Virus record (IMG/VR): IMGVR_UViG_3300044808_000010
Coordinates: 1-64,000 of that record
DNA: 64,000 bases
Reading direction: 5' to 3' (one strand)
From: a virus
Part shown: positions 3 through 46,468 of the stretch, piece by piece
Position numbering within the stretch: the stretch's first letter is position 1
How the letters are laid out: each line of letters opens with the position of its first letter
Translations under genes and position numbers: made by a program
The notes under the pieces: generated by a model
Told to the model about the DNA's origin: nothing
Databases searched by the model: none
Seen by the model: the letters and a program-made list of their open reading frames with translations, nothing else

Positions 3-500
3 CGCATGGCAGAAGAGGCCGACATACAGGCGGGGCATCGCGTGTTAGAGCCAAGCGCGGGAACCGGCAATCTAATCATTGCGATCAAGGAATTGGGCTT
101 TAACGGTAACATTCATCTTGATGCAATCGAGATCAATTACGACCTATGCAAAAAGCTGCGCGGCTACGGCATCGAAGTTGATCAGCAAGACTTTCTCGAA
201 GTCGAAAAGCCGTACTGCCCTGACGCGCCGGACGGATGGGATCGGATCGTGATGAATCCCCCGTTTGTCAATGGCGCGGATATCAAACACATACAGCACG
301 CGCAAACCCTTCTGAAGCCTGGGGGCCGACTCGTGGCGCTTTGTGCCAACGGGCCGCGCCAGCGCGCCGCCTTGCAGCCAATAGCCGACATTTGGGAGGA
401 CTTGCCAGCCGGATCATTCAAAGAGCAGGGAACCAATGTCAGCGTGGCATTACTGGTTATCAATGCGCCGGAAGCGCCAGCAGAAGGGCAGCTATTCTGA
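3..500 (+). CDS. SAM-dependent DNA adenine-type methyltransferase (5' end outside window)
   Basis: This is a class I methyltransferase that would transfer a methyl group from S-adenosylmethionine, probably to DNA. Counting from the Met at position 6, motif I (EPSAGTG) is at residues 15-21 and the catalytic NPPF is at 84-87, the arrangement of N6-adenine or N4-cytosine enzymes. The frame is open to the left edge, and the Met sits just before motif I, where family members usually have a longer N-terminus. The true start is therefore probably upstream of the window. The stop overlaps the start of the next gene (TGATG). The protein may modify phage DNA against restriction. The target base is not decidable from sequence. 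Confidence 0.85.
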   Translation, partial: RMAEEADIQAGHRVLEPSAGTGNLIIAIKELGFNGNIHLDAIEINYDLCKKLRGYGIEVDQQDFLEVEKPYCPDAPDGWDRIVMNPPFVNGADIKHIQHAQTLLKPGGRLVALCANGPRQRAALQPIADIWEDLPAGSFKEQGTNVSVALLVINAPEAPAEGQLF

Positions 501-11985: not shown

Positions 11986-13392
11986 ATGTCACACGAAACC
12001 TTATTCGAGCGCCCGCTACCATCATCACCGGAAACCGAGCGGGCGATCCTTGGCGCGATCATCCTCGACAATCGACTGATTGACGAAGCTGTTTCACTGG
12101 TAAGAATCGAAGACTTTTACGTTCCATCGCACCGGAGAATCTTTATCGCAATGCTGGCCCTCCACGAACGACACATCGAAATCAACCCTATCCTGATCGC
12201 CGAAGAGTTGCGGCGCGACCAGGCGCTTGAAGGCGTGGGCGGAGTGTCGTTCCTGACGAACCTGACCTATGGGCTCCCGCACGTCTCTGGAATTAAGAAT
12301 TATGCCCGCGTGGTACGTGGTAAAGCCGACCTACGCTGGACGATCAAGGAGTGCGCCAAAATCACGAATCAGGCGCTTGAGGAAGAAGATGAGCCGCAAG
12401 TAATCCTCGCCTCGGCCGCCGAACGCTTCTCCGCCATGCGGGAGAAGAATACGAATGGTTTCACAGGCGGGCAACTAGCAGACGTTGGGCGCCAAGTCGA
12501 AGATCACCTGTACGTGGTTCAGGCTGGCGTGAATCCAACCATCCCCACCGGAATTGAGCGCCTCGACGCTTTGACCGGCGGCGGGATTTCACCGGGGCAG
12601 ATGTGGGGAATTGGAGCTTTGAGTAGTCGCGGGAAAACTGCTTTTTTGCTTCAGATGCTTATGCACATGGCTGGGCGCAGGGAACTTGGCGTTACGCCGG
12701 GAATCGTTTTGTTCTCACTTGAGATGACGTCGCTGCTTCTCGGCCTTCGAGTTCTGGCCGGCGCGGCGAGCTTTCCGATTAACCATATCAAGGTCGGCAT
12801 GCCCCAGGGTGAAGTGGATTTACTGCTGAAGAAGGCAAAAGAGGCATTCGATCTGCCGATGTGGGTGTACACGGACTGCCGCTCAGTCTCCGACATTCAT
12901 GCGCGAATCAAGATGTTGAAGCGAAAGCACCCAATTCAAGTAGTGGGAGTTGATTACTACGGGCTTCTGCGCGGGCGCAATGATAATAATCGGTACGAGA
13001 ACAGAACGCAGGAATTGAAGTACATCGCGTCTTATCTGCAGCAGGAAATCGCTATTTCAGAAGAAGTCGGGTTGATTGTCCCAGCGCAATTCAACCGATC
13101 GGGCTGGGGCGCTGCGGAGTTGGGACCAGGAAACATTGATGGCGGCGAGGCGTTCCACCAGGCATGCGACATGTTCGCAGTGCTGAATACTGAGAAATCA
13201 AAGAAGGTTGGCGCCGTAACCGCCCCGGCAAGTTTTGCGATTCACAAGCAAAGGAATGGGCCAACCGCGACCGGGAAAGACGCGATCCTGCTGGATTTCA
13301 ACAAAGACCGAATGATGTTCTTTCCGCGGCTGGAAGATTCTGGCGAAGAAGTTCCAGACGAACCGACTGAAAATATGAAGGATTACTTATGA
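11986..13392 (+). CDS. dnaB: DnaB-type replicative DNA helicase
   Basis: This 468-residue ring helicase would unwind DNA at the fork. The N-terminal domain (about 12-150) has the DnaB form PSSPETERAILGAIILDN. A short linker leads to a RecA-like domain with Walker A GALSSRGKT (210-218), a Walker B-type VVGVDYYGLL near 310-320 and an arginine/Gln-rich motif (VPAQFNRSG) further on. The length is normal for the family. No primase or loader is seen beside it. Its stop overlaps the next ATG by four bases. Confidence 0.92.
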   Translation: MSHETLFERPLPSSPETERAILGAIILDNRLIDEAVSLVRIEDFYVPSHRRIFIAMLALHERHIEINPILIAEELRRDQALEGVGGVSFLTNLTYGLPHVSGIKNYARVVRGKADLRWTIKECAKITNQALEEEDEPQVILASAAERFSAMREKNTNGFTGGQLADVGRQVEDHLYVVQAGVNPTIPTGIERLDALTGGGISPGQMWGIGALSSRGKTAFLLQMLMHMAGRRELGVTPGIVLFSLEMTSLLLGLRVLAGAASFPINHIKVGMPQGEVDLLLKKAKEAFDLPMWVYTDCRSVSDIHARIKMLKRKHPIQVVGVDYYGLLRGRNDNNRYENRTQELKYIASYLQQEIAISEEVGLIVPAQFNRSGWGAAELGPGNIDGGEAFHQACDMFAVLNTEKSKKVGAVTAPASFAIHKQRNGPTATGKDAILLDFNKDRMMFFPRLEDSGEEVPDEPTENMKDYL

Positions 13393-14282
13393 GTTTACCA
13401 AAAGTAGAAGATGCGTTTGAAGTGTGGGTTTCACGGGAAGAAGCGCGGTTCGGTCGCGTTGCGATAAAGCCAATGTGGGATTGGTTAAGCAAAGCCTTTC
13501 TTGCTGGCGCAGAGTACGGCGCAGCGGCGGGCGAGCAGATGCTTTGCGATAGACCCTACGGCCACGAAGGGGAATGCGCCTCAGATCGTCCGGGGGAATC
13601 TGCAAAGGGGGGCAGAGCAGATTCTCCCGTGGAGTGCGGCCAGCGCTGGAATTTCTCTGGTATCGGGTGCCGTTTTGAGGCGGGACATAAAGGCGGGCAT
13701 TCGTGGGAGCCGCCGGAGTGCGGCATTCGAGGTTGCGTGTTCGCCTTCGGGCATCGGGGCGAATGCTCGCCCGATCTCCAGCCCCCAACCTCCCCCGTGG
13801 GGGACAGATCGCCCGTCTGCGCAGTCATCTCGGTTCCCGGCGGGCTTCCCTGTACGTTTGCACGGCATCACGCCAGCGCGCATTCGTGGGCGATGAGCCG
13901 CGACTACAAAGTGTCGGCGACAGGCGCAAAGAGTATTCCATCACTTGAGGCGGGAACTTGGGACAATACGCGCTCAAATCCCGACATGGCGCATTCGGCA
14001 GAAGGCTTCGCGCCGCCTTGCGTCACGTCTGACACCGTAGTTCTAACCGACAAAGGCTGGAGTGCCGTCAAAAACATTTGCAAACCGCCGCTCGGCGTCG
14101 TTCCGCAACACATCTGGCGCGAAGCGCGCGCGCGCGACCTCGCCAGAGCGATCCACGAGTATTGCGAGAGCGGAGCAAGGATTCAGCGCCCGTCGGTGCC
14201 ACCTGCCACGGCATCACCGAGCAATGTTTACCCGGTTGGCGACTGGATTCGCGAGTTAGGAGAACTATGGGAGACGCTGTGA
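13389..14282 (+). CDS. Cys/His-module protein with intein block A-like segment
   Basis: A 297-residue protein with at least four Cys-His units, such as CDRPYGHEGEC, CRFEAGHKGGH, CVFAFGHRGEC and CTFARHHASAH, probably small zinc-binding knuckles. Palindrome copy 5 (S-P-V-G-D) separates the third and fourth. Residues 211-230 (CVTSDTVVLTDKGWSAVKNI) look like the first motif of an intein, but no later intein blocks follow. The last 60 residues are helical and resemble an early phage region (PLGVVPQHIWREARA). Function is unknown. Confidence 0.6.
   Translation: MSLPKVEDAFEVWVSREEARFGRVAIKPMWDWLSKAFLAGAEYGAAAGEQMLCDRPYGHEGECASDRPGESAKGGRADSPVECGQRWNFSGIGCRFEAGHKGGHSWEPPECGIRGCVFAFGHRGECSPDLQPPTSPVGDRSPVCAVISVPGGLPCTFARHHASAHSWAMSRDYKVSATGAKSIPSLEAGTWDNTRSNPDMAHSAEGFAPPCVTSDTVVLTDKGWSAVKNICKPPLGVVPQHIWREARARDLARAIHEYCESGARIQRPSVPPATASPSNVYPVGDWIRELGELWETL
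13791..13804 (+). repeat. dispersed palindrome copy 5 (GT centre)
   Basis: TCCCCCGTGGGGGA encodes S-P-V-G-D from residue 135 of the Cys/His-module protein, between modules. Confidence 0.85.
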
Positions 14283-20826: not shown

Positions 20827-22224
20827 TCACCTTGCGCGACGGGCGGAGATAGTCCCGTAAGCTGTCATCGTGCTGATCGCGAAGGATGCTTTACCAACTA
20901 GATAGATCGTGGTCGTGGCTGCGAGTGAAATACGCTGGTAAGGGATGTTCTCAGCAAGTAGTGAACCGAGCACTGTACCAGAAAGATTACCACCGCTAGA
21001 TGACGTGAACGTGCCCTCACCACCAAGTGTATTGTCTGTCGAGCTTGCGCCTTGCTGTACGAAAGACGTAGTGGTTGTGGCAGCGGGGATATAATCTACG
21101 ATGCCGTAAACATCCCAATCTCCAGCAGTAAGACTAACGCTCGTGATGGTCTTGGCAGTTCCCGTGCTGAGACTTGTGGCGCTGCCGCTGGCGAGCGAGG
21201 CCGTGAGAAACTCTCCGATGAACCCGGCGGGAGCGTTGCTGTTGGTGGCTGTCCCGGCTAATATCGCCCCCTCACTAGAGTCTATGGATATTCCGCCGTT
21301 AAGAATTATCTTGATTCCATCAATGATGCCCTCAGGCAGAAACATTATGTCGCCGCCTAAAACGCTTATATGATCACCCGACCAATCGATCGCCGCCGTT
21401 CCCGGCCCTCCCGCGCCGTCATCTAACATCAGTTGGCGCGTGTTGAAATTTGCTGATTGAAGATCGCCGTTGTCGCGGATGATCACTTCCGAGTTGTCTG
21501 AAATATGACTAGCAACTAAATTAGTCCCATCACTCTTAGGAACTACATTTGCCCCTGCGGAGTTGGTAATCCCCGACGCTGGCGCATTCCCCAGCGTGCT
21601 CTGAATCTGAAAATTCGATCCCGTCGCAATCACACCATCAACCCACTGCCCGGCGCGAATATCATTGTCGGCAAGCGCGGTAGTGATCCCACCCGCTACT
21701 TTTACAATCGTCAGCGCGCCCAGCGTATTGAAGTTCACCGTCGCCGCGCCCGTATTTGCCGTGTTGGCTCTGAAGCGCAGATGCGTGCCGACCACGTAAG
21801 CAGCGGGTACAGGAGCCAAGTTGCAAGCGTAGGTATCATTCGCTCCGGCGTCAGAGCAGAACAGCGGCGTGCTCATGTCTGTTGCGGTTGCGGCGCGCGG
21901 CACTCCAGTTGTCGTGGTATTCGCTAACGGCCCTGTCGGCAATGTTCCCAGCGCAAACTCATTTGAGAGGCCGCTATTGGCTGTTTCAGTGATGTAGGTG
22001 GCGTCTGTCGCGCCGCTGGCCGCCGAGGCGTCTATCTGCGTGCAAGTGCTGGTGGCGCTGCCCTGGTAGACCTTATGCGTGGTGGCGTTGCTGTAAAGTT
22101 TCCCCGGCGCACAGACCGTTGGTGGATTTGCGGAAGTGAAAATGATCCTTTGGCTCTGCGTCCCCTGCCCGAACGTCGAGGCGGCAGAGAGTAAGAAAGC
22201 GAGAATTGTGATAATGCGTTTCAT
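20827..22224 (-). CDS. tail-fibre-like protein with Sec signal peptide
   Basis: A 465-residue protein. Residues 1-20 form a signal peptide (MKRIITILAFLLSAASTFGQ). A beta-rich body follows. A block around residues 120-210 matches the C-terminal domain of the 195-residue protein at 19027. The end (YLVGKASFAISTMTAYG, then a basic ISARRAR) is the typical tip of phage fibres. It probably binds the host surface, but export before assembly would be odd for a virion part. Confidence 0.7.
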   Translation of the reverse strand: MKRIITILAFLLSAASTFGQGTQSQRIIFTSANPPTVCAPGKLYSNATTHKVYQGSATSTCTQIDASAASGATDATYITETANSGLSNEFALGTLPTGPLANTTTTGVPRAATATDMSTPLFCSDAGANDTYACNLAPVPAAYVVGTHLRFRANTANTGAATVNFNTLGALTIVKVAGGITTALADNDIRAGQWVDGVIATGSNFQIQSTLGNAPASGITNSAGANVVPKSDGTNLVASHISDNSEVIIRDNGDLQSANFNTRQLMLDDGAGGPGTAAIDWSGDHISVLGGDIMFLPEGIIDGIKIILNGGISIDSSEGAILAGTATNSNAPAGFIGEFLTASLASGSATSLSTGTAKTITSVSLTAGDWDVYGIVDYIPAATTTTSFVQQGASSTDNTLGGEGTFTSSSGGNLSGTVLGSLLAENIPYQRISLAATTTIYLVGKASFAISTMTAYGTISARRAR

Positions 22225-22234
22225 GGTTTACCTC

Positions 22235-24487
22235 TTATGGAGCGCTACGACTGATTTCCACCCAAATGCCCTCTTGTTCAAGAAGCGTAATGCTCTTGCG
22301 GTTGGCCGACGTGAATGTTCCAGTTAGCGCAAAGTGGCCACCGTTGTTGATTGTCATATTGGCGTCGCCACAGAGAATTGTAAGCAACTGCCCTAATACC
22401 CCATTGGTTAAATTCGTGATGGTTGTAGGCACTGCAAAGTTTGCGGAGACAAAGGCACGGCCCTTCACGGAAGGTGTTGCGCTATCTGCCAATTCTGCTA
22501 AATAAGTAAGGGACACAGAACTTGTAGTTCGAACGCCCCCAATCGTATCCCCATAGAGAGGGGTGTTATCCAGTTCTCCCGCGTTGTTCATGGTCGGCCC
22601 CTGACCAGCGACATTTAGGACTACGGGGCCATTGAAAACATCGCCGTTGAACGAGACGTAAGGGTCAACGGCAACGAGCGGGGGGACTGGCGTAGTATTG
22701 TAGATACCAAGAATCGTCGCAGAGATGTTGTTTCCGCTTAGATAAACGTAGGTGTTGGCGGTGCCAGCAATAGCAATCCCGTACTTATAGTTAATTGCTG
22801 CCTGCGTTTTCTGAACGATGTTATGTGAAATATAGAGGTGGTTTGGCTGATCTTCGCCGGGATAGTAGGAAAGGAACGTGCCAAGTCCTGTCCCGCTGTC
22901 GATGCCGGAAGCGTAATTCCCCTGAACGGACGCTGTGCCCAATACCCGAATACACGTTACGTTATTTCCCGCAACGCTGTTGACAAAAACATTATTAGCG
23001 ATGAGGACGCCAAAGTCTTGGGTGTTGTCGGCGTAGAGAAAATTCCTGGTTATAACATCCACGCCATAAGCTCCGGATGCGGTTGATCCGTAACCGAGTT
23101 GAGTAAATACATTGTTCGCCACCACCGCAGACGAAATACTGTGAGTGGCGTCGTAATTAGATTCCCCTAATCCGATCCCTTTGTAGGCTATTCGCTTAAA
23201 AGAATTATTCACTACACGAATATTGTCGCCCAACACTGCGATGGCGAAATTGACATCTTCAAAACTACAGCCATCAATGAGTGTCCCGTCTCCGTCATAG
23301 GTATTGGTGTCAAAGCACCCCGTGGCGTTTGCGCTCAGCACGTTCTTGAAATTGCTATTGAGCACTCGCATGTTTTTGTATGCGCCGAGCACCATAACAG
23401 TCTCGCCTGTTGAACCATTGAACTCCACACGTTCAATGGTGAAATTGTCATTTCGAGTGATGATCATGGAGCGGTTACAGGTCAGTCCGCCAAAGGTACA
23501 GGTGCCCATCGTGGTCGTACCCGTAATGGTCAGGTCGCGAATGGAGTTATTGCTATCCGTAGTCACGTTGGAAGCAGACCGAAATGAAACGGTTCCACCG
23601 ACACCCACCCATCCACCATTAGCCTGCCGAGCAGCGTCAGTCATCACCGTGCCATCAATAATTGTTTTCCCGATACCCGCGCCGCGCAACTCCACGTTGC
23701 TTCTACCGTAGACGCCAACATTGCTGCTTAGCTTGTAGGTTCCCGGCGGGAAAAAAATTACCTTGTTTCCGGCTATCGAATTTATAGCCGCCTGAATTGC
23801 GGGGGCGTCGTCAGCAACCCCGTCTCCCACTGCGCCGTAAGCGGGATCTTTTACATTCAGAACTCCAAGCGGCGAGTTGATACGCGGATCATTGTCTCCC
23901 ACCGCAATCGGATTCACACTTGATGCTGGCGCAACGCTTAGTTTTGCTTTTCCTTTAAATACATCTGAGGCGTCTGCCACTGGCAGGACTTGATTGATGA
24001 GCGTCTGGACTTGCACCGTGTCAGGGAAGCCGGGGCGCGGCGGGGCGGGAGCCGTAGTGTTCCACGTCACCAACTGCGCAATCGTCATCGTCGCGCCATA
24101 GGCTGTAGGCCAGACGATGTTCCCTGCGTTCACGCCGGACAAAAGCGTGTCCCGCTTAGTTGCGCCGGAATAGAAAATGAAGATGTAGCGGCTGGTGTTC
24201 GGGCGTCCGTCGATGTTTGAAGGCAGCGTGAAGCTCGGAACCGTGAGCGTTGTTCCGTTCAACGTACAGGTGATTGACTTGTAGAAATTAGCGCCACCAA
24301 CCGGACTCGCGGCAACCCAAACGCCTGTGGAATCCAGAAAACCTTGGGTCACATAAACGCGCAGCGTAACAGTCCCAGTGTAGCGCCAAGCGAACTGCGG
24401 CTGGAAACTGGAAAGCGTAACGTCCGTCGCCCACGCTGGCGCGCAGAGCATCAAGAGAAAGACAATTGAGAGAAGAATCCGCTTCAA
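22235..24487 (-). CDS. pectate-lyase-type beta-helix tail spike with signal peptide
   Basis: A 750-residue protein. Residues 1-20 are a Sec signal (MKRILLSIVFLLMLCAPAWA). An N-terminal adapter follows, then the start of a right-handed beta-helix at VKDPAYGAVGDGVADDAPAI, the classic entry of pectate-lyase-superfamily spikes. Parallel beta coils run through residue ~640 (NNSF, ANNVF and similar repeats). It probably cuts or binds host polysaccharide. Catalytic acids could not be assigned. It is the largest of three consecutive genes coding MKR-type signal peptides. Confidence 0.8.
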   Translation of the reverse strand: MKRILLSIVFLLMLCAPAWATDVTLSSFQPQFAWRYTGTVTLRVYVTQGFLDSTGVWVAASPVGGANFYKSITCTLNGTTLTVPSFTLPSNIDGRPNTSRYIFIFYSGATKRDTLLSGVNAGNIVWPTAYGATMTIAQLVTWNTTAPAPPRPGFPDTVQVQTLINQVLPVADASDVFKGKAKLSVAPASSVNPIAVGDNDPRINSPLGVLNVKDPAYGAVGDGVADDAPAIQAAINSIAGNKVIFFPPGTYKLSSNVGVYGRSNVELRGAGIGKTIIDGTVMTDAARQANGGWVGVGGTVSFRSASNVTTDSNNSIRDLTITGTTTMGTCTFGGLTCNRSMIITRNDNFTIERVEFNGSTGETVMVLGAYKNMRVLNSNFKNVLSANATGCFDTNTYDGDGTLIDGCSFEDVNFAIAVLGDNIRVVNNSFKRIAYKGIGLGESNYDATHSISSAVVANNVFTQLGYGSTASGAYGVDVITRNFLYADNTQDFGVLIANNVFVNSVAGNNVTCIRVLGTASVQGNYASGIDSGTGLGTFLSYYPGEDQPNHLYISHNIVQKTQAAINYKYGIAIAGTANTYVYLSGNNISATILGIYNTTPVPPLVAVDPYVSFNGDVFNGPVVLNVAGQGPTMNNAGELDNTPLYGDTIGGVRTTSSVSLTYLAELADSATPSVKGRAFVSANFAVPTTITNLTNGVLGQLLTILCGDANMTINNGGHFALTGTFTSANRKSITLLEQEGIWVEISRSAP

Positions 24488-25147: not shown

Positions 25148-25738
25148 ATGCCAATGAACCCTATCTGTGGTAATTGCGACAACCCCAAACGCAAAGTCGG
25201 ACGCGGCTTCCGCTGCGACACCTGCGCCGCGCCTCCCGCTCCGCCTGACTTTAGCCAAGAGGCCATTCGGCGGTTCTGGTCGAAGGTTGACAAGACACCC
25301 GGCCAAGGCCCGCAGGGGGAGTGTTGGGAGTGGGCGGCGGGCCGTGACAGAGATGGCTACGGACAGTTTGCAGGCAAGAAGTGGGCGTTGCGTGCGCATC
25401 GCTATTCTTGGCTGCTTGCCCATCCCGGAGAAGTTCTCACCACCGCAGACCACGCCGCGCATACTTGCGATAATCCGCCTTGCGTGCGCTCGGATCATCT
25501 GTTCAAAACGACCACACAGGGTAATAATCAAGACAAAATGGAAAAGGGACGCCATCGCGGAGAGAGCCCTGGCGAGGATCATCATAACGCTAAGATCACC
25601 GAAGACGACGTAAGGGAGATTCGCCGTCGCTACGCCGCCGGAGGCGTAAGCCAGTCGGCTCTCGGTGCTGAATACGGGCTGTGTCAGTCTCATATTAAAG
25701 ATATCGTGAACTTCCAACGCTGGAAGCATGTCGCCTAG
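25148..25738 (+). CDS. free-standing HNH homing endonuclease, antisense to the late genes
   Basis: A 196-residue HNH protein. An N-terminal zinc ribbon (CGNCDNPKRKVGRGFRCDTC) is followed by CWEWAAGRDRDGYGQF, and the catalytic region has HRYSWLLAHPGE, HTCDNPPCVRSDHLF and NNQDKMEKGR, typical of phage HNH homing enzymes. The C-terminus holds a helix-turn-helix (ITEDDVREIRRRYAAGGVSQ). It is on the opposite strand to its neighbours, fitting a 40-base gap on one side and overlapping the tail gene end by four bases on the other, which suggests insertion as a mobile gene. Confidence 0.85.
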   Translation: MPMNPICGNCDNPKRKVGRGFRCDTCAAPPAPPDFSQEAIRRFWSKVDKTPGQGPQGECWEWAAGRDRDGYGQFAGKKWALRAHRYSWLLAHPGEVLTTADHAAHTCDNPPCVRSDHLFKTTTQGNNQDKMEKGRHRGESPGEDHHNAKITEDDVREIRRRYAAGGVSQSALGAEYGLCQSHIKDIVNFQRWKHVA

Positions 25739-27495
25739 ACCTGGCTCTCTACTTGTTTCTCATTGTGAGAAAGTGGCGTCACGCGCCCCATTCCAGCGAA
25801 GTAATTGTACTCAGGCTTGCGCATTTGAATCTTTATGACAGCCGATCTCTGCGTCACGAGTCGAATTGATACAATCTTATCCAGCCGTAGCGCAATCTTT
25901 TTCTCGCCGCCATGCTCCGCAACTACCACCGGATCGCCTATCTTTAACCGCGAAACAGGAGTCCCAATCGGGTCGCCAAAGTACGTTAAGAGCCGGTGCG
26001 TTTCAGTGCATTTCAGCGTACCGCCAAGTTCCGTCCTGACACGATAAATCTTGTCAACATGCCCTTCCTTGATGTTTTCAATCTCGCCAATGACCAGAAG
26101 ATCGCCTTGAACCGACAACAATCTATGCTTTCCAGCGATCAGTTCTTGCGCCATGACGGAGAAGATTCGCAGATTCTCGTCAACGCAATACACCGGCATC
26201 CTCGCGGCTACACAGCGCTCGCCACCTTCACCCGGATTCGGCGGTTCAAATCCACTGCCGCCAGTCCCCGCACCGCCTTGCGATGAGCCTGCTGGCGCGG
26301 CGTCCTGCACCTGGGCGCCTTTATCGTCGTCGGCATGATGCGCGTAACTTCCCGCCGTCGGTGAGAGGCTTACGAGGTCAATCAGCATGCCGTGCGCGGC
26401 ATCTGTACCAGTCAGCGCGGCGTCCCATCCAATCCTGAGCCACTGCTTGTCTGTAGTATTTCCCTGAATGTACGTCGGTGGGATTTGAATCGTCAGCGTG
26501 TACTGACGCCACGCCGCGTCCACGCCGTCAATCGGGAAAGAGTCGAGTTCACCTTGCTGCGAATACGTGATTGCCTTCTGCTGCGTGGCGTCAGTGTCAG
26601 GGTAGTTACCGACCGTTTCTTGAATGTCGCCTTGGTCAAAATACTGCGTTACCGTGCTCTGCCGCGACAGCAGGACGTAGACGCCGCCTTTCTTTCGATA
26701 AATATCTGATTGAATAAAACCGGCAAAGCGCGGCCACGTCAGTCGCACGTACACCGAACCCGAAACAAAGCTGGCATTGCTGGGCGCGTTCGCCACCGTG
26801 ACGACGGCGCTTTTGACCGTCTTCCCGTAATCGCTGGTCATCACGACCAGATACTCAGTCGAAGTAGTGGCGGCCGGCAGTCCTACCACTTCGGCCGTTA
26901 CGGTGAATCCGTTTCCGTTGAGGAAGTCTCGTTGACCAAGAGTGTTGTCCCAAATTCCGGCATACAGCCGCCCGGGCACAACGACATTCGCTGAACGCTT
27001 GGCCGCAATCAATCCAACAGAAAAGATGCGCCCAGGAAAGGCGACGTTGAATGGAAGCGGGAAGTCCAGCGTTCGCGTCGAGCCCATCATGGCGTAACCA
27101 ATTGAGCGCTTCCAGTAGGGATCCATCGTTGGCGTATCTGAGCGCGCGGCGTCTGGTAACGCAGTCGAGGCCGCCACCAACGCGCCGGAGTAAACCGAGT
27201 CTTCCAGAAGCTGCTGGCCGACTGAAGGCGCAGGGTGTGTGTAGACTTGATAGCATTCATATCGAGCGTCATCCGCAACCGTGATGGCGCGCATGAAGTT
27301 ATTCCACGAATAGCTGAAGTCGCCATCGCGAACGTAGTTATGAATGGCTGGCGCGCCGACGCCGGGAATGTTTTTGACAGTGCGATCGAGAAGGGTTTGC
27401 TGCGCCTGTAGCGTCGCAATCAGCGTCGCTTGCTGATTAACCAACACGCGTAGTCCGCGCACGCTGTCTTGAAGTGTGTCGAGATTGACAGTCAC
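25735..27495 (-). CDS. tail protein with C-terminal intein-like Hint domain
   Basis: A 586-residue protein. Residues 1-50 form a helical, probably trimerising start. Residues 55-400 are beta-rich domains like a phage baseplate or fibre protein. After a Gly/Ser/Pro linker (400-427) a Hint domain of about 151 residues begins at C428 and ends at H577-N578, followed by only eight residues. Block A (C, then MPVYC), a B-block-like TETHRL with Thr and His, GDPVVVAEHGG, and the end YNYFAG...SHN are all present. Cys1, His in block B and terminal His-Asn could support autocleavage. The residue after Asn is Glu, so splicing is unlikely. Confidence 0.75.
   Translation of the reverse strand: MTVNLDTLQDSVRGLRVLVNQQATLIATLQAQQTLLDRTVKNIPGVGAPAIHNYVRDGDFSYSWNNFMRAITVADDARYECYQVYTHPAPSVGQQLLEDSVYSGALVAASTALPDAARSDTPTMDPYWKRSIGYAMMGSTRTLDFPLPFNVAFPGRIFSVGLIAAKRSANVVVPGRLYAGIWDNTLGQRDFLNGNGFTVTAEVVGLPAATTSTEYLVVMTSDYGKTVKSAVVTVANAPSNASFVSGSVYVRLTWPRFAGFIQSDIYRKKGGVYVLLSRQSTVTQYFDQGDIQETVGNYPDTDATQQKAITYSQQGELDSFPIDGVDAAWRQYTLTIQIPPTYIQGNTTDKQWLRIGWDAALTGTDAAHGMLIDLVSLSPTAGSYAHHADDDKGAQVQDAAPAGSSQGGAGTGGSGFEPPNPGEGGERCVAARMPVYCVDENLRIFSVMAQELIAGKHRLLSVQGDLLVIGEIENIKEGHVDKIYRVRTELGGTLKCTETHRLLTYFGDPIGTPVSRLKIGDPVVVAEHGGEKKIALRLDKIVSIRLVTQRSAVIKIQMRKPEYNYFAGMGRVTPLSHNEKQVESQV
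25762..26214 (-). other. Hint (intein-like) domain in the tail protein
   Basis: Residues 428-578 run from C428 to N578. The +1 residue is Glu and the C-terminal extein is only eight residues, as in bacterial intein-like (BIL) domains rather than true inteins. Confidence 0.65.
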
Positions 27496-30275: not shown

Positions 30276-30998
30276 TCACGTTTGTAGTACGCGCTGGGCG
30301 GTCAGTCCCACAGACTTTAGTGCCGCCACGGCGTCTTCTGGTGACTTCCCACGCACGATTTCGTCAGCCTGAAGGCGCGCTTGATGACGCCGCAGCGTTT
30401 GACCGTCAAGGGGCCGCGCGTTCATTGCGCCACAGTTCGAACAAACCAAAACGCTCATAATCCTGCCGTGCTTCTTAGACCAGACCGAACGATGAATTCT
30501 CTCTGTTGTCACCAGATTAGGATTCGCCTCGATCGCTCGTTCGCACTTTGCGCCGCATCGAGCATCATCGTCGCGCCAAACCGCTTGGTGAAGCGCTTTG
30601 TATTCCTTTTTCAGCGCAGTCTCGCTTTTAGGCAATACGGTTAGCGCCTGTTCAAACTCACCCATAGTCGCCAGCGCTTCGGCCAGCAGCTTTGCGTAGT
30701 GATCGAACATGCGCCTTAATTCTTTGCGCTCTTCCTTCGTGTGCTGTTGATGTAATTCAAGCTCTACCGCCTTCAATCCTTCAAGCCAATCCACCGCGAC
30801 GCGGCGCGCCTGGGCGACCTGCGCCAAGTGAACGTCGAGTTGAATGTGAGGTGAGGACTCGGCCAAGCGCGCTTGCTCGCGAATGGACTCTTCAACTTTC
30901 TCAGGGGTTAGCTCAAGGTGGCGTCCGGCATCACCGATCTGAAACTCACTTCCATCGACCGCCTTGAATTTGAAGGTTTTTGGCTTTTCGTCTTTCAT
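30276..30998 (-). CDS. hypothetical protein with coiled coil and zinc site
   Basis: A 240-residue protein. The first 150 residues are helical and charged. CGAKC and CSNCGAMNAR in the C-terminal half form a likely zinc-binding site. A final helix ends the chain. No family is recognised; it may be an assembly factor for the neighbouring tail proteins. Confidence 0.5.
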   Translation of the reverse strand: MKDEKPKTFKFKAVDGSEFQIGDAGRHLELTPEKVEESIREQARLAESSPHIQLDVHLAQVAQARRVAVDWLEGLKAVELELHQQHTKEERKELRRMFDHYAKLLAEALATMGEFEQALTVLPKSETALKKEYKALHQAVWRDDDARCGAKCERAIEANPNLVTTERIHRSVWSKKHGRIMSVLVCSNCGAMNARPLDGQTLRRHQARLQADEIVRGKSPEDAVAALKSVGLTAQRVLQT

Positions 30999-31975
30999 GC
31001 CATCCTCATAATGAAGGCCAAGGAATAAAATACAGGCTCGTTATTTGCCGTGCTGTGCGCTGAGATCGCATGGTCATTCGGCTGCGTTACCGCGTGACTC
31101 AGAACCGCCGAGGGACCGCCGCTCGTTACGGCATTATTCGTAACGCCGTGAGCATCTACCGAGCCGCCGCTGGCTGTGGGGACTCCGGCGGGCCATGCGA
31201 CTGAACCTTGATTGGAAACTGTGTGAGACAGCGTTGCGCTGGGATTACCGCTTGTTACTGCGGGATTGTTGACAGTATGAGTCAGCGCTGCGCCCGGCCC
31301 GGCAGTTGTTCCTGAAGCTACCCCGCTCGTATTGTTGGCCGTCGATCCACTGAACGTCCCCGCTAACGTATTTGTTGCACCTGTCGTGCCCGCCATTGAA
31401 GCGCTTGTCGCCGTAGATCCAGCACTTGCTCGCGTTGGAATTGTGGAGGCCAACGTGCCCGCTGGATGGACGTGATTAGGAACATCTGTGTAGGTATGCG
31501 TGTGGCTTGCGTGGTTATCGACTGAGACGTTGGTAGTAACGCTATGCGTATGCGCGGCGTGATCGGATACAGCGATCCCGGAGATCGTGGGAACACCCGC
31601 AGGCCATGCAATTGTCGGCTGATTGAACGAGTGATTCGCTACCACGACATTCGATGTAACGCTGTGCGTATGTGAAGCGTGATCGGCGACAGCCGCGCCA
31701 ACATGAACCAAATTGGAGTGATTATCATGGGTATGCGTGGCGCTCCCGCCTGTCACGCCTGGGTCAATTCCCGCCGCTGCGCCTTTCGGAAACTTACTGC
31801 GAAGGTCTGGCGTGCCATTTGTGCCGTCACACAATTGCCAGTTGCTAGGAATGTTTACCAGCAACCCGCTAAACATGATGATCCCGCCGATAGGAATAGC
31901 GCCCGGCCACGCCTCGATATTGACGTGCTCTTTGCCGGTCGCGGTTTCGACTAAAACTGTACGGGGACTCGTCAT
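30995..31975 (-). CDS. tail-collar fibre protein with His-rich repeats
   Basis: A 326-residue protein. Residues ~25-70 are a phage collar domain start (AIPIGGIIMFSGLLVNIPSNWQLCDG, split across two strands, then TPDLRSKFPKG). The last residues (NNEPVFYSLAFIMRM) are the usual collar end. Between them lies a long insertion with units such as DHASHTHSVT, rich in His, Thr and Asn, that could chelate metal along a fibre as in long tail-fibre tips. It probably binds the host surface. Confidence 0.75.
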   Translation of the reverse strand: MTSPRTVLVETATGKEHVNIEAWPGAIPIGGIIMFSGLLVNIPSNWQLCDGTNGTPDLRSKFPKGAAAGIDPGVTGGSATHTHDNHSNLVHVGAAVADHASHTHSVTSNVVVANHSFNQPTIAWPAGVPTISGIAVSDHAAHTHSVTTNVSVDNHASHTHTYTDVPNHVHPAGTLASTIPTRASAGSTATSASMAGTTGATNTLAGTFSGSTANNTSGVASGTTAGPGAALTHTVNNPAVTSGNPSATLSHTVSNQGSVAWPAGVPTASGGSVDAHGVTNNAVTSGGPSAVLSHAVTQPNDHAISAHSTANNEPVFYSLAFIMRMA

Positions 31976-38101: not shown

Positions 38102-39349
38102 TTACGCGCTATTCCCTAACGCTAAGTTGGTCGTTGTGAGCCCGTCGATACGGGTTCCCAGTCCAACGACATCTTTCACGCCGGTATTGAAGAAGCCTTC
38201 CCAGTAGACCGCACGGCCACTCGCATGAAGCTGGCCGGATGCAGCGTTAATCATGTGAAAGATCGAGTTGCCTTCCTTCACCATCTGAATCTTCTGCATG
38301 CGATACAGGTGGATCGCCTTGGGGTCGATTTCCCACACCATGTCGCGCTGGACGTGCTTATTGAAGCGGAAGGGCACGCCGGCATAGTCGGTCTGTCCGT
38401 CGAGGAAGCCAGCGTCGAATCCGTTGCCGCTGACCTGCTTCATATCGAAGCCGATAGCGACGTAGGCAGACCACTGGGACGAGACGTACAGCTTGTTCTT
38501 GCCGCCGCGACGCTTTCCAGTCTTCAGCGCGCGCGCTGAGTGCATTTTCTCAAGGAGCCCTTGAGTCAGTACGCCGGAAGCAGTAACGGTGGTGGGGACG
38601 GTGCCGCGGTAGATCGTGCGGTCAGCGAGCCCTTGCCAAGCGCCGGAGGTCGCAACGTGATACATCAGGCCGCGAGGCGCTGCGCCGTAAGATCCGCGGA
38701 GGTAGATGCGATCATTGGTGGTGGCGTCGTTGGCGATGGAATCGACGGTAAACGTCTGGCCGGCGTAATCGACGGTCAGGATGGTGCTCCAGGCTACGCC
38801 GCCGCCTTGATGCAGGGTTCCGCCGGAAGTGCGGAATTCGATCTGCATGCCCACTTCCAACATCTGACAGCCATACAGATTGGATGTGGTGTTGCAGGTG
38901 ATGGTGAGGCTGGAGACGCCGGATGCGCGGGCGCGTTCGCCGGTGCCGTCGCCCCAGAGATAGAAGTCAATGGAGTTGCGAAGGTTCTCGAGCTTGTTGT
39001 CGAGTTCGCCAGTAACGAGATCAGTGATGGTGGTGGCGGTTTGGTTTTCCGCCAGGACGTGATTCGAGAACAGGGCAGTTGCGGTGACGCCTACGAACGG
39101 GACCGTCATCTTGACCAGCGGCGACACACCCGGATTCGGGTAGTCTTGCAGTTCGGCCGTACCCCACGCCTCCGAGACGTTATTCAGCGGGCGAATGACC
39201 AGCGAGGTGCCACGGGAATTGAGTTCCTGGTAGTCCTTGCCTTCTTCGATCTCCGAATAAAAGTCATCGACGTTGTAGGTAAGGTTCTCTACGCCGCCAT
39301 CGTAATGCTCACGCACAGCCGCCTCGACGTTAGCGAGTAATACGGACAT
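38102..39349 (-). CDS. major capsid protein, HK97-like
   Basis: This 415-residue protein forms the head shell. Evidence is its place next to the scaffold, the length, and strings seen in HK97-fold capsid proteins of long-genome phages: an N-terminal arm, a spine helix region with LVTGELDNKLENLRNSIDF, IRPLNNVSEAWGTAEL, and a C-terminal strand with the GQLHASGRAVYWEGFF loop. There is no palindrome copy in it. A promoter upstream of the scaffold gene gives it its own transcription unit. Confidence 0.8.
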   Translation of the reverse strand: MSVLLANVEAAVREHYDGGVENLTYNVDDFYSEIEEGKDYQELNSRGTSLVIRPLNNVSEAWGTAELQDYPNPGVSPLVKMTVPFVGVTATALFSNHVLAENQTATTITDLVTGELDNKLENLRNSIDFYLWGDGTGERARASGVSSLTITCNTTSNLYGCQMLEVGMQIEFRTSGGTLHQGGGVAWSTILTVDYAGQTFTVDSIANDATTNDRIYLRGSYGAAPRGLMYHVATSGAWQGLADRTIYRGTVPTTVTASGVLTQGLLEKMHSARALKTGKRRGGKNKLYVSSQWSAYVAIGFDMKQVSGNGFDAGFLDGQTDYAGVPFRFNKHVQRDMVWEIDPKAIHLYRMQKIQMVKEGNSIFHMINAASGQLHASGRAVYWEGFFNTGVKDVVGLGTRIDGLTTTNLALGNSA

Positions 39350-43836: not shown

Positions 43837-44300
43837 CTCGCTCTCCCTTCTAAATGCGCCACGTCTGCGGGATCAAGTGAATTTACGTAGTCGCCAGTAA
43901 GCGGCTCGCTCTTTTCCGCCAAGTCCATGTTTTGCCGCTTCATCGCGATATCGTGAACCAATTTGCGCCTGCGCCCAAGTTCGCCTTCATACGACACGTT
44001 CAGCGGATCGCTCACTTCTCGAAGTTCCGCTTCCATCTCTTCCAGCGTTTGCTCGCGCTCTTCCGGCGTATCGCCCAGCATTTGCGCATGGAGTTTCGCG
44101 TCCTGAGTGGTCGGCAGTTCGCGCCACGTCAGCGCGCCATCGGCCAGCGCGGTCGCCATCTCTTTCCAATCAATTGCGTGCTGCTTTTCAGAATCGCGCT
44201 CTGCCGCAAGGTGTCGCAGTTCTTCGCGGCGCACGAACTTGGCGTACATCGCGATACCGCCGACGAGAAGAATGATGATGGCAAGGTAAATGGGCGTCAT
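43833..44300 (-). CDS. membrane-anchored coiled-coil protein
   Basis: A 155-residue protein with one N-terminal membrane helix (IYLAIIILLVGGIAMYA) and a long charged coil. It lies between terminase and portal genes. No family is recognised. A membrane-anchored coil could be a spanin or a virion assembly factor, but its position argues against a lysis role. Confidence 0.55.
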   Translation of the reverse strand: MTPIYLAIIILLVGGIAMYAKFVRREELRHLAAERDSEKQHAIDWKEMATALADGALTWRELPTTQDAKLHAQMLGDTPEEREQTLEEMEAELREVSDPLNVSYEGELGRRRKLVHDIAMKRQNMDLAEKSEPLTGDYVNSLDPADVAHLEGRAS

Positions 44301-46468
44301 AGATAACCCTGTCTCCTTAGTCGCTCCTGATAATCCAGAAGCGCGCTTCCGGTCATACCAGATTTATCCTCATTTTCCAATCGTCTTCTGGCTTGATTCA
44401 TTGCCGCCATCCGCCCGCGATAGTCCCATCCTGTCAGTTTCTCGACTTCTTCCGGCGCAAATGCAGGGTTCAGCGCCTTCATTCTGTCAGCCAAATCTTC
44501 TGCTTCGGACTTCGTTCCAGTCAGCGCGCCCCAGACGATTGCCGCTGCCCGAGCGTCGTCAACGAGATCATCATCCTTCTTTTCCGGCCGCATCTGACCG
44601 ACAGGCTTTCCCGCTTCTTCTGGCGGGTAGTGATAGCCCTGAATCTGACGACGCAGATTCATCATACCCATAAAATCCGTTCCGGGCTCGACATAAGGCT
44701 CGCCGTTTTCCCTGAGCCTCAGTTCGCCCTGGCCGTCTTGAGTCACGATGATCATGCGCGTGTAGCCCATCACTCGCCGCGCCACGTTGCCATGCTGATC
44801 AAGAATTGGATCACGCAACGGATGCGGCTTGTCCTTGTGAATCACCGTGAGAAACTCGGTGATTTGAGCAATGCCGGATTCGTAGTCAGTCTTCCAGCCT
44901 TCAAATTCAAGCCCGTATTCTTCTGAGTAATTGACTCGCTCAGACTCAGCTTCATGGGAGTTCTGCCGCAGCGCCATTTTCCCGTCTTCATCGTCCGGCG
45001 CTTCAAACATGCGAACGTTATCGACAATCAGGCGGAACGTCGCTCCAATTGGCGCAAGCCATTCACGGAAGAAAAACACACAGTCAGAGAACCTTCGGTG
45101 ATCCGGCAGTCGCCAGCACCAGAGCCATGCGTTCCTGTGCTTCGCGGTCGCGCCACGGTCATTGAAGCACGCTATCTCGCACTGGCCTTGCGGTATTCGC
45201 GGCCGCCCATCCCCGTCGTCGGGAAAGAATATCCCTTCCCTGCCCATCGCGCGCCGCAACTCCGACATCGTGATGACAGTATGAATCTCGGAATACATCG
45301 GCCACACGCGCCCAGGCTGCGAGGCTTCCGGGTCCATGTCGATTTCCTGCGCAATCAACTCCTTCGACATCTTCGGCCCGATGTAGCCGAACGGCAGCGA
45401 GGCATACCAGCGCGCGTCTTTCCACGGATGGTCTTTCCAGTTCAGCGTGAAAACGTTCGCGCCCTCAGAGATCCAATCCTCGTAAAACTGATTGAATTTG
45501 CCCTTGACCGACGAAATCTCAATTACCGACTTCGACGTACCGCCCGCCACCGAATCCTTCTGCGCATACCCACCATCAGGCCATGCCGCAAACTCGTCCA
45601 TGATGACGACTGTAGCGCGCTGCTGGCGCCCAAAGTTCTTTACCGGCGCTTCCCCGGAAACTACAGAGCCGTTGTTCGGGTTCGCCAGCATCATTCCTGA
45701 CGAATGTTTACGCCAGTCAAAACTCTCCGGCATCATCCAGGCCGGCAGGAGCCTGAGTTGCATCCTGATCTTCTCGAATAACGTGTCAGGATTCCTCTGT
45801 GAATCAACCAGGTCGTCTTTACGGGAAGACAGAAGCGCGGTAAAGCCGGATACCACTAACCACTTCAGCGCCGACCAGTCGCACGCAATGACAGTTGCGC
45901 CCATGTCCCGCGACTTCGGAGCCACGCCGGAAGACCTCTGGATGAACACCATGTCTTCCAGCCACGCAATGAACTCTTTCTGGCGCTCAAACGGAGATAG
46001 CGGGACGGTAGCGAGCCCAGAGTCGGCGCGCGGGTCGAATCCCCAGGCGTAGTATTCGAACCAGTGGATCGCGCCCTCCGCCCCGTCAGCAATCTTCTCG
46101 AGTTCGCGCTTTCGGTTCTTAATCCCGTCAAGGTATTTCAGGCGCTTCTGCGCGACATCGGCGGCGCGGTTGAGTTGCCACGCAACGAGGTCTTTCTGAT
46201 ACTCGCGGGCTTCGCGCTCAGTTTCGTTGCGCGCTTTTTTGATTAGCGCGGCGATCTTCTTTTGTTCAGCGGGGATTGTTTGCCGGGCGGCAATACATTG
46301 GTGGAGGGCGGTAATGAGCGGGTCGGGAGCCTTCAGGACGGACTTGAGACGCCCGCGCGCGGCCATGACGGTCGCGCGCTCAGATTCGTCCATGTGCGGC
46401 CAAAGTTCGGCGAGATCGTCGTCAGACCACGACTCGATGCCGGGGCGGTTAGGCAGGCCCACTGTCAC
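44297..46468 (-). CDS. terminase large subunit
   Basis: This 723-residue motor protein packages DNA. The ATPase part has a Walker A-like KSRDMGAT (185-192) and Walker B IMDEF (289-293). The nuclease part lies in the C-terminal half, with acidic residues near LIVDNVRMFE and DDDLVDDAR. A 130-residue helical N-terminal extension is present. The start is GTG 46468, or possibly GTG 46462, which is better spaced from the GGAG site. It overlaps the small-subunit gene by 20 bases. Confidence 0.85.
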   Translation of the reverse strand: MTVGLPNRPGIESWSDDDLAELWPHMDESERATVMAARGRLKSVLKAPDPLITALHQCIAARQTIPAEQKKIAALIKKARNETEREAREYQKDLVAWQLNRAADVAQKRLKYLDGIKNRKRELEKIADGAEGAIHWFEYYAWGFDPRADSGLATVPLSPFERQKEFIAWLEDMVFIQRSSGVAPKSRDMGATVIACDWSALKWLVVSGFTALLSSRKDDLVDSQRNPDTLFEKIRMQLRLLPAWMMPESFDWRKHSSGMMLANPNNGSVVSGEAPVKNFGRQQRATVVIMDEFAAWPDGGYAQKDSVAGGTSKSVIEISSVKGKFNQFYEDWISEGANVFTLNWKDHPWKDARWYASLPFGYIGPKMSKELIAQEIDMDPEASQPGRVWPMYSEIHTVITMSELRRAMGREGIFFPDDGDGRPRIPQGQCEIACFNDRGATAKHRNAWLWCWRLPDHRRFSDCVFFFREWLAPIGATFRLIVDNVRMFEAPDDEDGKMALRQNSHEAESERVNYSEEYGLEFEGWKTDYESGIAQITEFLTVIHKDKPHPLRDPILDQHGNVARRVMGYTRMIIVTQDGQGELRLRENGEPYVEPGTDFMGMMNLRRQIQGYHYPPEEAGKPVGQMRPEKKDDDLVDDARAAAIVWGALTGTKSEAEDLADRMKALNPAFAPEEVEKLTGWDYRGRMAAMNQARRRLENEDKSGMTGSALLDYQERLRRQGYL

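Follow-up and report, generated by a model that had tools for sequence, protein, structure and literature searches.

A Hint domain ending a phage tail-region protein, absent from a sister phage and recurring at the C-terminus of other phage proteins

The C-terminal region of a 586-aa protein from an uncultivated soil virus is a Hint domain, which is lacking at the same place in the homologous protein of a sister phage, and a similar C-terminal layout recurs on unrelated phage tail proteins; it is this with/without pair together with the recurrence that is new here. The domain could be a self-removing C-terminal module of the type A bacterial intein-like (BIL) sort, cutting at R427/C428, a reading that we consider about equally likely to be right or wrong. 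The window, i.e., the whole stretch of DNA analysed, comprises positions 1 to 64,000 of the 70,890-bp source record. A preliminary description had placed a tail protein ending in a Hint domain at 25735-27495; the coordinates proved correct, the strand, which had not been given, is minus, and the Hint end was borne out, while the word tail draws on the gene neighbourhood. The carrier protein comprises the following features:

25735..27495, minus strand: carrier protein ORF, 586 aa, GTG start
carrier residues about 5-41, minus strand: predicted N-terminal coiled coil (low-confidence model)
26215..26295, minus strand: Gly/Pro/Ser-rich linker, residues about 401-427 (PAGSSQGGAGTGGSGFEPPNPGEGGER), kept in the sister, whose protein stops five residues later
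25762..26214, minus strand: Hint domain of 151 aa running from Cys1 (residue 428) to the terminal Asn (residue 578), lacking in the sister phage
26212..26214, minus strand: Cys428, predicted N-terminal nucleophile, with the predicted cut at R427/C428, as expected from intein and BIL chemistry (PMC4031507)
25996..26007, minus strand: block B motif T497-E-T-H500 (TxxH), from the sequence
25762..25767, minus strand: block G His577-Asn578, from the sequence
25738..25761, minus strand: C-terminal tail EKQVESQV, eight residues with Glu at +1 and Lys at +2, then the stop

Motifs, HMM matches and an AlphaFold model agree that residues 428-578 are a real Hint domain. All residues named in the preliminary description are present (C428, T497-E-T-H500, GDPVVV at carrier residues 520-525, and H577-N578 followed by eight residues from Glu579), the block F position is occupied by Tyr (Y563 in PEYNYF) in contrast to the His of inteins, and no Cys follows residue 496. 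The HMM search proposed at that stage returned Hint-type matches: PF14890 (Intein_splicing) matched the C-terminal 171 aa with an E value of 4.3e-5, at 23.8 bits below its cut-off of 35.8, and NCBIfam TIGR01445 (intein_Nterm) reached 24.7 bits on the isolated region, just over its cut-off of 24.5, and 21.4 bits on the whole protein, whereas the Hint_2 family PF13403 did not match. The AlphaFold model (pLDDT 77.5, pTM 0.69) predicts a Hint fold, and each of its 50 top-ranking PDB matches is an intein, a Hedgehog Hint domain or a BIL domain, headed by the NpuDnaB intein (E 2.2e-7, TM 0.74 by target length). The model was built with 33 phage Hint sequences in the alignment, which may have favoured this fold; the evidence from motifs and HMMs is independent of that alignment.

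Residues 1-427 of the carrier matched no known family in family profile searches, a PDB search with the carrier profile gave nothing significant, and a whole-carrier AlphaFold model from two sequences (pLDDT 30) was not relied on. That the carrier is a tail protein is what we infer from the position of its gene, which sits within a block of structural genes and next to a convergent endonuclease gene:

20827-22224: tail fibre, structural block
22235-24487: tailspike, structural block
25148..25738, plus strand: HNH endonuclease gene, convergent to the carrier and overlapping its stop by four bases
30995-31975, minus strand: tail-collar/fibre protein gene, structural block
38102-39349: major head protein, structural block
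44297-46468: terminase large subunit, structural block

A partnership of HNH endonuclease and Hint by collaborative homing is unsupported, since the HNH gene is 71% identical between the window phage and the sister, which has no Hint; the HNH gene is therefore probably no part of a Hint device. As a separate difference between the two phages, the tail-collar/fibre gene at 30995-31975 has no counterpart in the sister, where its flanking genes adjoin.

The sister phage is the one relative in IMG/VR, a 72.8-kb contig that matches most structural and replication genes, and a search for further sister phages via the neighbouring 926-aa protein and the terminase returned only this known one. In this phage the carrier has a homologue with 68% identity over residues 3-427, which then reads GGPR-EFTIA-stop, so that homology ends exactly at Cys428 and the sister protein runs on for five residues beyond that point. 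DNA homology resumes in the last codons of the window ORF with both flanks of the Hint collinear, and the PF14890 profile matched nowhere in the sister record. Because the homologous protein stops where the Hint begins and the sister record is without a Hint, the domain is, judged from these two sequences, an optional C-terminal module, and a carrier cut at R427/C428 would match the Hint-less protein of the sister. With homology and collinearity to the sister on either side of the Hint, an assembly chimera is unlikely. The Hint segment is low in G+C (2nd percentile of the window, 6th percentile of structural-gene windows), which weakly points to a gain of the domain in a comparison of two genomes only and is no proof of recent acquisition.

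As to its classification, the type A BIL layout suggested in the preliminary description is supported by the length, Cys1, TxxH, His-Asn, the Glu at +1 and the predicted fold. Type A BILs are defined in PMC4031507 and PMC9185962; BIL domains span 130-155 aa (PMC9185962), and the type A members end in His-Asn without a nucleophile at +1, form an N-terminal thioester and cyclise the Asn, with mostly cleavage products and some splicing via attack by the freed amine (PMC4031507; PMC7664689). The window Hint has 151 aa, carries C428, T497ETH500 and a C-terminal H577-N578, is followed by Glu579 where Cys, Ser or Thr need not stand, and occupies a variable place in a non-conserved protein, being missing there from the 68% identical sister protein. 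It thus shares its Hint fold, Cys1, TxxH, His-Asn, size and the lack of a +1 nucleophile with type A BILs such as that of Clostridium thermocellum (PDB 2lwy), a structure matched both by the aligned phage Hint set described below (E 6.6e-10) and by the Hint model; it differs from them in having Tyr for the block F His and in its location at the extreme C-terminus of a phage tail-region protein, with eight residues after it.

With class 1 inteins the window Hint has the fold and blocks A, B and G in common, along with the PF14890 and TIGR01445 matches, but it lacks a Cys, Ser or Thr at +1 and an internal endonuclease domain, and it ends a non-conserved protein instead of sitting in a conserved site. 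A canonical splicing intein is disfavoured by Glu579 at +1, and the insertion site likewise speaks against a class 1 intein, as the domain ends a protein without known family where the sister stops. Cys428 at position 1 and the lack of a Cys after residue 496 that could serve as block F nucleophile speak against a class 3 intein. The Pretoxin HINT domain of polymorphic toxins (PF07591) belongs to the same Hint superfamily and matches 18 of 34 aligned domains, whereas the window member matches PF14890 and not PT-HINT; a toxin-releasing PT-HINT was rejected, because only EKQVESQV and no toxin domain follows.

Close relatives of the window Hint sequence were absent from IMG/VR, INPHARED and PLSDB, the best INPHARED match (E 2) being a DNA polymerase intein. 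A first probe, a hand-composed consensus sequence based on what is generally known of C-terminal Hint domains in phages, matched a gut phage tail-tip-like protein ending in ...GGGGATPPGGGY-C[Hint]LSHN-IKQQEQLQ, which like the window protein has eight residues after His-Asn. With a second probe, an alignment of three hand-written Hint sequences, 78 further loci were obtained (75 viral loci and three in bacterial genomes), out of which 50 distinct Hint domains were cut using Cys1 and His-Asn. A profile of these 50 other phage Hints scored 10.8 bits on the window Hint, against 6.5 bits for the best of 1000 shuffles, and ranked it first among 300 ORFs of the window phage and its sister (E 0.08). 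In a one-to-one comparison, hhalign related the window Hint to the phage set at 93% over 126 columns, while tblastn gave no confirmation of this kinship. The window Hint appears to be a distant relative of the phage Hint set, as far as sequence comparison can tell.

Among the 50 distinct Hints, 23 end their protein 2-18 residues after His-Asn (one of them cut by a contig end), mostly behind a Gly/Pro/Ser-rich linker. Twenty carriers were scanned, 19 of them of this C-terminal class and one (L058) with a 34-residue tail, and 12 of the 20 match PHROG tail families of different kinds:

L017, L037: match to lambda tail assembly protein I
L028, L041, L043, L087, L088 and, weakly, L064: match to tail fibre or J-like proteins
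L055, L072, L081, L093: match to other tail proteins

The residue at +1 is K, I, V, F or Y in 50 of 50 Hints and Cys, Ser or Thr in none, and Lys stands at +1 or +2 in all 49 that could be judged, a pattern that the Glu-Lys of the window protein fits; neither the +1 position nor the Lys served to delimit the domains, although the sequences in the probe themselves finish with HNIK. In the alignment, 49 of 50 phage Hints have the block F His where the window Hint has Tyr563. The conservation of this His, of Cys1 and of His-Asn is partly built in, by the motif patterns (including the block F region) with which the loci were picked and by the use of Cys1 and His-Asn in cutting. The Gly/Pro linker, Cys1, LSHN and a short tail in which Lys occupies +1 or +2 characterise the phage C-terminal Hints (e.g., MT835519.1, L017, L028, L072, L093) and are all present in the window Hint, which is about 20-30% identical to these domains in the alignment and is the only one among those compared that has Glu in the +1 position and Tyr in block F. 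Since the J protein of Caulobacter phage W2, related to one of the carriers, is without a Hint, presence and absence of the domain evidently vary there too. Other arrangements were also seen: three proteins (L075, L076, L080) have the Hint at the extreme N-terminus, with an MA-C start and a long C-terminal part after VHN-K, the reverse of the window layout, and two (L023, L068) have a second Cys-led Hint-like start after the first HN-K (GGGGGCVALESFVPL, GGGSVWVEAYMP), perhaps as tandem Hints. In Salmonella phages (H134-H138, e.g., MT074484.1 11177-11281), the Hint block B region matches on annotated head morphogenesis or minor capsid proteins, so Hint-like domains may occur on phage head proteins as well.

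For the window protein we propose that the last third of the carrier acts as a Hint autoprocessing domain, an optional module that a flexible linker joins to the C-terminus of the protein. With the aid of the TETH histidine, Cys428 would convert the R427-C428 peptide bond to a thioester, whose hydrolysis would let the Hint leave and a 427-residue protein remain, equivalent to the Hint-less protein of the sister; cyclisation of Asn578 may free the octapeptide too. That cleavage would prevail over splicing is expected from what is known of the chemistry of such domains; the activity of the domain, the dominance of cleavage on the N-terminal side and a role in assembly are presumed. Before its removal the Hint may guard folding or assembly, a checkpoint role that is plausible by analogy with the intramolecular chaperone auto-processing (ICA) domains of phage tailspikes, which help the trimer to fold and then cut themselves off (PMC3742443). 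The likeness is confined to the way of working, in which a phage tail protein would shed its own C-terminal domain, whereas fold and chemistry are unrelated to Hint and ICA requires trimerisation.

Self-removal is backed by the motifs, the HMM matches, the predicted fold, the sister pair with its collinear flanks, the recurring layout, the pattern of +1 and Lys residues and the W2 J protein without a Hint, which together bring this reading to roughly an even chance. Against it stand the Tyr at block F, which may weaken cleavage on the C-terminal side or signal decay, and the distant position of the domain within the phage set; moreover, mere removal would not explain why phages keep a Hint that the sister manages without. 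Tyr for the block F His, Glu at +1 and a divergent domain, together with the absence from the sister and the low G+C, would suit a remnant, inert or in decay, of a mini-intein or BIL which came to lie at the 3' end of the gene and persists there as a fused domain that does no harm. However, Cys1, TxxH, His-Asn and the reading frame are all intact and the same C-terminal layout is found on many phage proteins, and we regard such a remnant as doubtful, though worth serious consideration.

Alternatively, the R427 thioester might be captured by an amine or another nucleophile, either on a partner subunit or on the host surface, and the tail protein would be fixed covalently by its new C-terminus. 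Hedgehog Hint domains take this initial step too, on the way to transfer onto a nucleophile (PMC7664689, PMC7765530), and the presence of such domains on unrelated phage tail proteins suggests that they do more than get discarded; yet because the sister has the carrier homologue without a Hint, such a link is not essential to this phage group, which favours domain release over an essential cross-link, and both acceptor and partner gene are hypothetical, making capture unlikely. Type A BILs can also splice without a +1 nucleophile (PMC4031507), which would join R427 to E579 in a 435-aa protein, and the residue after the matching Arg of the sister is Glu too. This R|E junction amounts to one residue, which is unconvincing and weak evidence, the C-terminal flank of eight residues is otherwise unlike the EFTIA of the sister, and type A BILs give mainly cleavage products (PMC4031507); splicing thus appears very improbable. 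Finally, the fixed C-terminal place of the Hint behind a flexible linker would be in line with a structural or chaperone domain that stays attached without any cleavage, but the domain retains its catalytic motifs, and in the sister the protein is folded and assembled without a Hint, so we view permanent attachment as remote. Self-removal by cleavage at R427/C428 is hence the reading that we carry forward; if the domain is active, self-processing intein-fold domains would be at work in virion maturation.

It is well known that phage terminases, polymerases and reductases can carry inteins. Examples in a terminase and a reductase have been described in phiCbK (PMC3556154), and Hint domains occur in polymorphic toxins (PMC3482391), while a search of open-licence PubMed Central, a coverage outside which most subscription papers lie, found no study that deals with such domains on the tail proteins of phages. 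In a wider sense, C-terminal Hints could serve phages in general as a device by which the C-terminus of a tail protein is activated as a thioester and passed to a nucleophile of a partner or the host surface; we think this decidedly unlikely, but if true it would mean that part of the tail is fastened covalently, or that phage and host become covalently joined. With a natural pair of proteins, one carrying the domain and one without it, and with its repeated occurrence on unrelated tail proteins, the function of the Hint becomes directly testable, and related Hint domains are also present in genomes of named bacteria (Pyxidicoccus caerfyrddinensis, L092, and Sphingomonas glacialis, L093).

Elsewhere in the window, an ORF on the plus strand at 13389-14282, directly downstream of dnaB, contains CVTSDTVVLTDKGWSAVKNI, which resembles intein block A; no further Hint blocks follow it there in any frame, and it may be a remnant or a chance likeness. 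In addition, a 14-bp palindrome, TCCCCCATGGGGGA, has twelve exact copies across the genome, often within genes (read as SPMGE/SPMGD or FPHGG):

4919, 5825, 14485, 16250, 19635, 32887, 40901, 43038, 49514, 54284, 56033, 61428: copies of TCCCCCATGGGGGA

The form CCCCATGGG has 24 strand matches in the window against 0.34 expected and none in the loci of the sister phage, and the palindromes might serve a phage protein as sites in the manner of operators or stoperators.
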